43,559 nt of DNA from Chthoniobacterales bacterium. Lineage in GTDB: Bacteria; Verrucomicrobiota; Verrucomicrobiia; Chthoniobacterales; UBA6821. The position numbers were made by a program, and so were the translations under genes. The stretch spans positions 1 to 43,559 of the forward strand of contig JAIEQF010000017.1 in NCBI GenBank assembly GCA_019747895.1. Reading direction: 5' to 3'. Under the pieces are notes generated by a model, which was given only the letters and a program-made list of their open reading frames with translations, was not told the DNA's origin and searched no databases. This document shows, one piece after another, positions 9,520 through 13,493 of this stretch. How positions within the stretch are numbered: position 1 is the first letter of the stretch; every line of letters starts with the position of its first letter.

Positions 9520-10119
9520 ATGAATGAACTAATGCCGCTTTTTCTCGCCACGCGCAATCGTCATAAGACTCATGAAATTCAAACCATGCTCGGTGAAGGC
9601 GTCGTCGTGCGTGATGCCACCGAGCTTCCAGAGCTTCCCGAAATTGAGGAGACGGGAATCACTTTTGAAGCCAATGCTCGCTTGAAGGCCGAAGGAATTT
9701 CGGAACATATTTCTGGTTTGGTTTTGGCCGATGATTCCGGCTTGGAAGTCGATGCGCTCGATGGTGAGCCTGGAATTTACTCAGCACGTTATGCTGGACC
9801 AGGCTGCACGGATTTGCAAAATACTGAACTTGTTTTAGAAAAAATGAAGGACCTCCCTTCAGAGCAACGTGCTGCGCGATTCCGTTGTGTGCTTGCTGTG
9901 GCTCGTGATGGCAAAACGATTGCCACGTTTGATGGCACGGTTGAAGGAAGGCTCACAACCGAGATCACGGGAGGTGGAGGATTTGGTTACGATCCGATTT
10001 TTATTCCTGAAGGCTACGAAAAAAGTTTTGGAGAACTTCCGAGCGAACTCAAAAATTCGATGAGCCATCGGGGGCGCGCACTCGAGCAGTTTCGCGCTTG
10101 GTGGGAGATGAAAAAATAA
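9520..10119 (+). CDS. rdgB: dITP/XTP pyrophosphatase (RdgB/HAM1 family)
   Basis: It removes non-canonical purine nucleotides (dITP, XTP, ITP) from the pool by hydrolysis to the monophosphate and pyrophosphate. The 199-aa length fits the family. Signatures are FLATRNRHKTHEI at residues 8-20 (the substrate loop), LADDSGLEVDALDGEPG with the catalytic acidic residues, SARYAG, GGGGFGYDPIF and the final MSHRGRAL. It has its own rightward direction between two leftward blocks. A second in-frame ATG five codons in (MPLFLATRN) is an equally possible start. Confidence 0.95.
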   Translation: MNELMPLFLATRNRHKTHEIQTMLGEGVVVRDATELPELPEIEETGITFEANARLKAEGISEHISGLVLADDSGLEVDALDGEPGIYSARYAGPGCTDLQNTELVLEKMKDLPSEQRAARFRCVLAVARDGKTIATFDGTVEGRLTTEITGGGGFGYDPIFIPEGYEKSFGELPSELKNSMSHRGRALEQFRAWWEMKK

Positions 10120-10122
10120 TTC

Positions 10123-10176
10123 ACCACAAAGAGCACAAAGAGCACAAAGAGCACAAAGAGCACAAAGAACGCAAAG
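10123..10176. repeat. Direct period-9 array CACAAAGAG
   Basis: Five or six tandem copies of the 9-mer CACAAAGAG/CACAAAGAA/CGCAAAGAA immediately follow rdgB, introduced by TTCACCACAAAG. Unlike most members of the family, no clear mirrored arm is seen before prfB. Confidence 0.85.
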
Positions 10177-10236
10177 AAAGAAATAAAAAAATTGATTGTC
10201 AGTTAGCGCTCCTGCTCGTGTTTCAAGACAGGCTTA

Positions 10237-11338
10237 TTAATTTCTCAACTTCGCTTCAATAAACGTATCAATATCCCCATCCATCACGCCTTGGACATCG
10301 CTTGTCTGAACATCAGTGCGGTGGTCTTTGACCATTTGATAAGGTTGAAAAACGTAAGAACGTATTTGACTTCCCCAGGCAATTTCTCCTTTTTCACCAT
10401 ATTGGCGATCAAGCTCAGCCCGTTTTTTGTCAGCTTCAATCTGATAAATTTTTGCTTTCAACATTTTGAGAGCTAGATTGCGATTCTTGAGTTGGCTCCG
10501 TTCCGCTTGGCAAGCCACAACGACGCCTGTTGGAACGTGAGTCATGCGAACAGCTGTTTCGACTTTGTTGACGTTTTGTCCTCCTTTGCCTCCCGCGCGA
10601 TAGGTATCAACATTGATATCTTTTTCATCAATTTCAATGGGTGCATCCTCAATGTCAGGAACAACATCAATGCTAGCAAATGATGTATGGCGTCGTTTTG
10701 CTGAATCAAAAGGAGAGATGCGCACGAGGCGATGAACTCCTCGTTCGGTTTGAAGATAGCCAAAGGCATACTCACCTTTGACAAGGAGTGTGATTGATTT
10801 GATGCCGGCCTCTTCTCCTTCTTGAACATCAATGATGCTCGAAGCATAGCCAGAGCGCTCCATCCAGCGTTGATACATACGCAAAAGCATCTCGGCCCAA
10901 TCGCATGATTCAGTGCCGCCCGCTCCAGCATGAATCGTTAAAAAGGCATCGGACTTATCAAATTCTCCGCTGAGCAATTGGCGAATTTCAAATTTTTCTA
11001 GATCCGAAGTCAGCGCTGTAAACTCGGCAGTCACTTCTTGAAATGCCACTGTTTGTTGTTCTGGTGATGTTTCTTCTTCCACCATCGATTGCAAAATAGA
11101 AAGATCACCAAGACGCTGTTCCAATGAGGATAGCGGGCCTAAGATGGCTTTCAATTGAGAAACGCGTTCGACATCTTTTTGAGCGCTTTCACGATGATCC
11201 CAAAAAGTTGGTTCCGTCATCCGTGCTTCAATCCCAGCGAGTTCTGTTGTTAGTGCGGGAGCGTCAAAGAAACCTCCGCAGGGCGCCAAGGCGCTCCGTT
11301 AATGCGGAGGTGTCGATTATTGTTAGATCGGTAGACAT
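10237..11338 (-). CDS. prfB: Peptide chain release factor 2, with programmed +1 frameshift
   Basis: RF2 ends translation at UGA and UAA codons. The gene starts at the ATG at 11338 ([10 protein letters not shown]). Codons 1-24 are followed by an in-frame TGA at 11266-11264; a +1 slip on CTT TGA C continues as DAPALTTEL and gives a 366-aa protein, close to the 365 aa of E. coli RF2. The codon-recognition tripeptide SPF is at about residues 208-210 and the catalytic GGQ at about 252-254 ([12 protein letters not shown]). The slip site CGG AGG TTT CTT TGA C is the classical RF2 arrangement, with a Shine-Dalgarno-like CGGAGG just upstream. Regulation is therefore by RF2 level: low RF2 slows UGA reading and favours the shift. 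Annotating only the main frame would miss the first 24 codons. Confidence 0.97.
11263..11280 (-). promoter_or_regulatory. prfB autoregulatory +1 frameshift site
   Basis: On the minus strand the order is TGCGGAGGTTTCTTTGAC: an SD-like CGGAGG, a TTT spacer codon, the slippery CTT, the TGA stop (codon 25) and a following C. This matches the known RF2 recoding signal in E. coli (AGG GGG TAT CTT TGA C). It is notable because hardly any start codon in the window has an SD sequence, while this internal one is strong. Confidence 0.95.
11272..11311 (-). other. Inverted repeat sequestering the frameshift SD of prfB
   Basis: In the mRNA, ACCTCCGCA (11311-11303) is the exact reverse complement of TGCGGAGGT (11280-11272), which contains the SD-like element of the frameshift site. 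Between them GCGCC TT GGCGC can form an inner stem. The upstream arm imitates the anti-SD tail of 16S rRNA, so folding would compete with the ribosome for the stimulatory SD. The coding constraint of codons 10-22 could produce part of this by chance. Confidence 0.6.
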
Positions 11339-11382
11339 AGAAAAGTTAATTTATAGAGATGCTGGAACGAGAGAGAAGAGAT

Positions 11383-11573
11383 TCACAGGGATGGAAGCGA
11401 TGGAAGGAATAAAGACAAAAAGAATAACCACTAAAATCGTTAAATGTCGCTAAAAAACTTGTTTCCGCGAAAGCGGAAATACATTGCTACCATTTTTTTT
11501 GTGTTATTTCGCGTGTTTCGCGGTTTTAAAATTTCCTCACATCCCTTCCATCGCTTTCATCCCTGTGAATTAT
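11383..11573. repeat. Mirrored GATGGAAGC array with GNRA hairpin upstream of prfB
   Basis: Positions 11383-11410 (TTCACAGGGATGGAAGCGATGG...) and 11539-11573 are approximate reverse complements, each with period-9 GATGGAAGC units, flanking about 130 nt. Inside lies a perfect 7-bp hairpin TTTCCGC GAAA GCGGAAA (11462-11479) with a GAAA tetraloop. The spacer lies between the FtsB-like gene (3' end at 11570, overlapped by the right arm) and prfB. No gene is visible in it. Confidence 0.75.
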
Positions 11574-11914: not shown

Positions 11915-12058
11915 GAGCGAGTAAAAGAGTAACGAGTTCTGAGGCAATATCTTAAGAGAGTAATTTTTCTTTAGAAGATATCCTGTTAAAATATAAATTT
12001 TGGAAAACTGATTTTACTTTCGATCTAAAAATACTCGTTACCCGTTACTCGCCACTCG

Positions 12059-13493
<1,435 letters not shown>

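Follow-up and report, generated by a model that had tools for sequence, protein, structure and literature searches.

The prfB gene, which encodes release factor 2 (RF2), in a 43,559-nt stretch of Chthoniobacterales DNA (contig JAIEQF010000017.1, positions 1 to 43,559; hereafter the window, meaning this whole stretch) carries a programmed +1 frameshift site whose internal Shine-Dalgarno (SD) sequence is predicted to form the 3' strand of a 40-nt hairpin. Comparison with related genomes indicated that this hairpin is almost certainly an RNA structure under selection in a large part of the Chthoniobacterales, because its synonymous sites are conserved, its two sides covary and it is more stable than expected. 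An initial annotation of the window had drawn attention to two complementary arms at this site and had proposed that the upstream arm might mask the frameshift SD.

The frameshift site and hairpin of the window

The prfB gene (10237..11338, minus strand; Pfam RF-1 match) begins with a short open reading frame, ORF1, which runs from the ATG at 11338 to an in-frame TGA at 11264-11266 and ends CTT-TGA-C; RF2 continues from there in the +1 frame to a stop at 10237. The slippery site CTTTGA (11264..11269, minus strand), with CTT in the P site, UGA in the A site and C following, was invariant among the relatives compared. The SD that stimulates the shift, GGAGG (11273..11277, minus strand), lies 3 nt 5' of CTT, the minus strand reading CGG AGG TTT CTT TGA C, and this gap is the spacing known for +1 shifting (PMC5009743). 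Below, the C of CTT (11269) is position 0 and negative numbers run upstream. There is no 16S rRNA gene in the window's own assembly, and the 16S tail was taken from same-genus genomes, in which the 3' end is GGATCACCTCCTTTCT; the tail CACCTCCTTTCT of two of these (L276 and L277), with its terminal CACCTCC, is complementary to the SD.

Upstream of the SD, the segment ACCTCCGCA (11303..11311, minus strand, -42..-34) spans codons 10-12, ACC TCC GCA (Thr-Ser-Ala), and is the perfect complement of TGCGGAGGT (11272..11280, minus strand, -11..-3), which contains the SD; 22 nt separate the two, as the initial annotation had described. Its remark that ACCTCC is the anti-SD hexamer also held. Since the same-genus 16S genes end CACCTCCTTTCT, the 5' arm is, judged by these rRNA ends, a true copy of that hexamer and can be called an anti-SD mimic. 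ACC makes up 2 of the 21 Thr codons in the main prfB frame, and the genome is AT-rich. What had been described as a two-arm hairpin proved to be part of a larger element. A further stem lies within the 22-nt loop (inner, or apical, stem-loop, 11281..11297, minus strand), its pairs covary between relatives and it too is under selection, the whole forming a single SD-sequestering hairpin of 40 nt (11272..11311, minus strand, -42..-3) with its base 2-3 nt 5' of the CUU slippery codon.

The 44-mer at 11270-11313 had a predicted folding energy of -24.2 kcal/mol, versus -12.6 kcal/mol for dinucleotide shuffles (z -4.9), and none of 200 shuffles folded as well. The pattern ACCTCC-N20..34-GGAGGT, which is palindromic and hence counted on both strands, occurred at one site in the 2.06 Mb assembly, the prfB hairpin, and a reversed control pattern occurred twice per strand. 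Chance pairing was ruled out by these shuffles and the single genomic occurrence, together with the frozen synonymous sites, the resampling and the parsimony count described below.

Conservation of the upstream arm

The starts of prfB genes were gathered from the genus, family, order and class of the window genome, with a few from the phylum; its nearest named relatives are Spartobacteria/Chthoniobacterales of the Verrucomicrobiota. Most of these sequences come from metagenome-assembled genomes, and all structures reported here are predictions. The hairpin set comprised 53 distinct Chthoniobacterales prfB genes with Thr, Ala or Pro followed by Ser at the arm.

Across these 53 genes the arm, CCTCY, was invariant at synonymous sites. 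Codon -14 was always NCC (ACC in 33, GCC in 18 and CCC in 2) and codon -13 was always TCY (TCC in 45 and TCT in 8, the latter still able to pair with G). Synonymous variation was present in the same set at codons other than those of the arm, the SD and the slippery site: in 47 fourfold-degenerate control columns from the same genes the commonest base had a median frequency of 51% and a maximum of 85%, and no column was uniform. By parsimony on a tree built from RF2 itself, the third base of codon -14 had undergone no changes, versus 6-25 (median 17) in the 47 control columns, and that of codon -13 had undergone four, all between C and T. Likelihoods based on codon usage were 1e-16.7 for NCC and 1e-21.8 for TCY, values that ignore relatedness, and the parsimony count is the safer measure. 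The conservation of the upstream arm that the initial annotation had asked to see among relatives was therefore found to be strict.

Selection on the whole hairpin

The segment -45..-1 of each gene was folded and compared with synonymous resamplings drawn from the gene's own codon usage. For the 53 hairpin genes the mean z was -3.08, with p<=0.1 in 96%; with the arm codons held fixed it was still -2.48, with p<=0.1 in 89%. The 62 relatives in the Chthoniobacterales set that have no arm gave a mean z of -0.11. Chimeras assembled from the 5' and 3' halves of two dissimilar genes folded at -18.1 kcal/mol, versus -23.7 kcal/mol for native sequences, and the native sequence beat the chimera in 92% of cases (54% and 53% in two control groups). 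When pairs were counted on the alignment in a fixed register, 75.9% of cells were paired, and slid registers gave 35-44%; the covariation score, 0.190 versus 0.132, was matched by none of 500 shuffles.

The SD was fully paired with upstream sequence in 53 of 53 predicted folds, as in hairpins that sequester an SD, and the CCTCC:GGAGG pairs are the invariant part of the structure. The register of the inner stem shifts from family to family (GCCGA/TCGGC, ACTGA/TCAGT, GCGTC/GACGC, GGCC/GGCC). A single fixed register for it was considered and rejected; because of this slippage RNAalifold recovered the outer 6 pairs only, and two further inner-stem registers scored less well.

It might be supposed that the ORF1 peptide (D-T/A-S-A/G-L..RL..LRRF), or codon bias, is what is conserved and that the pairing is a by-product. 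The amino acids of the D-T/A-S motif are indeed conserved among the hairpin genes, but the synonymous sites that are frozen are exactly those at pairing positions, resampling that preserves the peptide loses the fold, the hairpin halves covary across families, and a distant family (f90, below) makes the same arm with other residues in another frame. With the control columns and the resampling both contradicting it, we consider this explanation highly improbable.

Distribution and a likely second origin

In the RF2 tree, the principal hairpin genes fell into a single large block; a smaller group stood separately, and f90, a family in another branch of the class, lay far off. Hairpins in f90, such as GACCTCCGCCAACGTCACACGGCGTTGCGGAGGT, fold at -23 kcal/mol and sequester the SD across -35..-3 of prfB (in L232, L257, L258, L218 and others). 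Their arm, at about -35..-30, falls on Leu-Arg/Gln/His codons, in a different reading frame. CTCC was present at the arm in 7 of 9 sampled members, and the family mean z was -1.67. The arm is missing from one genus of f90, g220, in which one member carries a weakened SD, ACGAGG. From these sequences it is likely that an SD-sequestering prfB hairpin arose a second time, in f90. In a sister clade, a hairpin with Asp-Ala-Glu codons (TCGCG..CGCGA) had been picked out by eye, and it was dropped when resampling gave no clear excess.

We also folded the prfB sites of E. coli and 13 others from outside the Verrucomicrobiota. The site of E. coli K-12 (L272) gave a weak version of this outline, in which CCUC and GGGG enclose an inner stem (-12.6 kcal/mol, z -1.2), and E. 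coli and close enterobacteria shared a weak fold of like outline with z from -1.2 to -1.7; Acinetobacter, Mitsuaria and the sampled Bacilli gave nothing clear. A hairpin general in bacteria was rejected on these results, and the claim is kept to the Verrucomicrobiota. The initial annotation did not know such a layer from the E. coli case, and the hairpin is indeed specific to certain lineages, in contrast to that textbook case. The weak fold of E. coli may have been affected by upstream mutations in reporters published for that species. Among viral contigs, no useful set of RF2 genes was obtained.

Possible roles of the hairpin

A translating ribosome would melt the prfB hairpin before reaching the SD, so that the SD could be masked when the shift is decided only if the hairpin re-formed behind the ribosome, a dependence the initial annotation had already recognised. 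The masking it proposed stands in part: the anti-SD mimic is real, selected and predicted to sequester the SD in ribosome-free mRNA, but masking ahead of the ribosome cannot itself decide the shift. Elsewhere, refolding behind the ribosome stimulates +1 shifting (PMC12661321; PMC6321510), and the effect of the hairpin on shifting may therefore be opposite in sign to masking or damping.

The role we consider most likely is that the hairpin refolds behind the ribosome at the shift site, pulls on the mRNA and favours the +1 slip, a reading to which we give an even chance. A ribosome with its P site on CUU leaves the mRNA 5' of about -15 exposed. While UGA occupies the A site, the hairpin's 5' arm and top stem would have passed the mRNA exit and be free to re-pair, and the SD strand would sit in the exit channel, the place where 16S rRNA normally holds it. 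During a long pause, when there is little RF2, the hairpin would zip towards the ribosome and compete with the anti-SD for the SD; the zipping would draw the mRNA out in the 5' direction, and the CUU-bound tRNA would slip forward (+1) to UUU, leading to RF2 synthesis. In ribosome-free mRNA the same hairpin would keep the SD covered.

Predicted energies are consistent with such competition. The segment -45..-16 alone folded at a mean of -5.6 kcal/mol (window -6.6), and with the SD strand at -23.5 kcal/mol (window -23.9). The gain from completing the hairpin exceeds the predicted SD:anti-SD duplex (-10.7 kcal/mol), and a refolding hairpin could for that reason compete with 16S rRNA for the SD. 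Precedents exist in three systems. In the yeast ABP140 mRNA a conserved upstream stem-loop lifts +1 shifting from 40 to 60%, one extra spacer codon abolishes the effect, and the authors, whose model is mRNA pulling, expected the same mode in other organisms (PMC12661321). On 70S ribosomes, a designed hairpin placed 5' of CUUUGA reached about 60% of the stimulation that the SD provides, and did so only when RF2 was absent (PMC6321510). The same pulling model has been put forward for the 5' stem-loop of T4 gene 60, in which, at take-off, the uppermost base pairs are made outside the exit (PMC5009743). The prfB hairpin is in this light a natural bacterial candidate for an ABP140-type mode: its predicted pairs reach -3 or -4, close to the shift codon, and it shows the reduced synonymous change and matched substitutions looked for in an element of the ABP140 kind.

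Several points weigh against the pulling role. The artificial hairpin was weaker than the SD duplex (PMC6321510). In prfB, where hairpin and SD duplex draw on the same bases, formation of the hairpin could oust the stronger stimulator and so reduce shifting. Folding energies ignore the walls of the ribosome, and unless something moves there may be no room for the hairpin to zip all the way to -3. The SD and slippery site are the same in many relatives that have no hairpin.

In its fullest form the proposal is a two-state switch, in which the SD strand is shared by 16S rRNA and an in-cis mimic of the anti-SD, refolding behind the UGA-paused ribosome pulls on the mRNA, so setting the gain of RF2 autoregulation, and the arrangement has evolved probably twice in the Verrucomicrobiota; we put this forward tentatively. 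Were the pulling switch true, we know of no earlier bacterial example of a natural upstream hairpin that stimulates +1 shifting.

The main rival is masking, in which the hairpin would cover the strong SD inside prfB mRNA that is free of ribosomes or little translated. It would then keep free 30S subunits off a false start, GGAGG-UUUCU-UUG, in which a UUG stands at start-codon spacing from the SD, and/or refolding would strip the SD from 16S rRNA, damp the shift and lower the RF2 level. The complete pairing of the SD in every predicted fold, the invariance of the CCTCC:GGAGG pairs, the energy gain over the SD:anti-SD duplex and the presence of the UUG all suit masking. Yet relatives with an identical SD and UUG have no hairpin, the frame of the UUG closes within a few codons in the window, and the hairpins, mostly at -20 to -28 kcal/mol and under selection outside the arm too, are more stable than hiding a 5-nt SD would require. 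Taken together, masking in these forms seems to us possible but doubtful, although the comparative data fit either sign, damping or stimulation.

The U-rich UUUCUUU directly 3' of the hairpin raises the thought that the two form an RNA polymerase pause or weak attenuator at which the first ribosome would catch up at the shift site, and in E. coli there is a NusG-suppressed polymerase pause just upstream of the prfB stop codon (PMC10268239). The U run is, however, imposed by the slippery site in all species, and the hairpins of f90 and some Chthoniobacterales are followed by a poorer U tract, UAUCUUU. The terminator d-score was negative in 96% of hairpin genes and -6.9 in the window. This transcriptional role is unlikely in our view, and an intrinsic terminator or attenuator was rejected, the d-score being positive in 4% of the hairpin genes; a terminator scan of the window flagged only another site and not the prfB hairpin. 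Some other RNA role, in mRNA stability, RNase processing, protein binding or temperature sensing, appears quite unlikely, since in each of two separate lineages the hairpin's 3' boundary is fixed relative to the SD and slippery site, which points to frameshifting.

Repeats near prfB

Between prfB and the next gene, an inverted repeat at 11381-11570 has 30-nt arms that are 93% complementary and 130 nt apart. Its end motif, CATCGCTTYCATCCCTGTGAA, has 20 copies in the genome (control 0), and from its sequence it looks like a dispersed element of the miniature inverted-repeat transposable element (MITE) kind, starting about 40 bp before the prfB start codon. The enolase gene is flanked on both sides by another dispersed repeat, TACTCGTTACCCGTTACTCGCCACTCGTTACT, in direct and inverted orientation (12032-12065, 13336-13368 and 13455-13486). 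Just downstream of prfB, at 10116-10186, about 6 copies of a 9-bp tandem repeat, CACAAAGAG, adjoin the end of an rdgB-like ORF.

Comparison with known systems

RF2 is the textbook bacterial case of +1 frameshifting, and its cis signals (SD, CUUU and UGAC) are usually taken as complete. A conserved hairpin containing the SD adds a second RNA layer to the signal in some lineages. The hairpin had no matches in Rfam at E-values up to 5, and so no link to a known ligand-binding family. In a survey of 12,753 genomes the terms "secondary structure" and "hairpin" are absent from the text and the sole "stem-loop" is in a dnaX reference (PMC12421855). No report of the hairpin was found in the open-licence literature, though an older one is possible. 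It is probably a second, unreported layer of control on the textbook frameshift. It may explain differences in shift efficiency between species, and it offers natural material for the mRNA-pulling model, the inner stem being breakable and restorable without touching the SD or, largely, the protein.

The window's prfB shares with the autoregulatory frameshift of the E. coli type the in-frame UGAC, the CUUUGA, the SD 3 nt upstream and the remainder of RF2 in the +1 frame. It differs in having a conserved 40-nt hairpin whose 3' strand is the SD, whereas the predicted E. coli fold is weak. Leader hairpins that sequester an SD, by the logic of riboswitches and thermosensors, likewise pair it with an anti-SD-like arm, but there the SD serves initiation, and in prfB it serves frameshifting inside the gene. 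The 5' stem-loop of T4 gene 60, in which zippering is proposed to push the ribosome forward (PMC5009743), serves a long translational bypass, and prfB a 1-nt shift. The artificial CUUUGA hairpin used in E. coli 70S extracts is also a stable hairpin by the E site of an identical shift site and mimics the SD duplex (PMC6321510), but it was designed and was assayed in place of an SD, whereas the prfB hairpin is natural and shares the bases of the SD. The stem-loop of yeast ABP140 is likewise natural, conserved and covarying; it lies within coding sequence, a short way 5' of a CUU +1 site that allows P-site re-pairing (PMC12661321). That element acts on 80S ribosomes with its base 6 nt upstream and no SD, while the prfB hairpin, predicted from sequence, would act on 70S ribosomes with its base 2-3 nt upstream and overlapping the SD.
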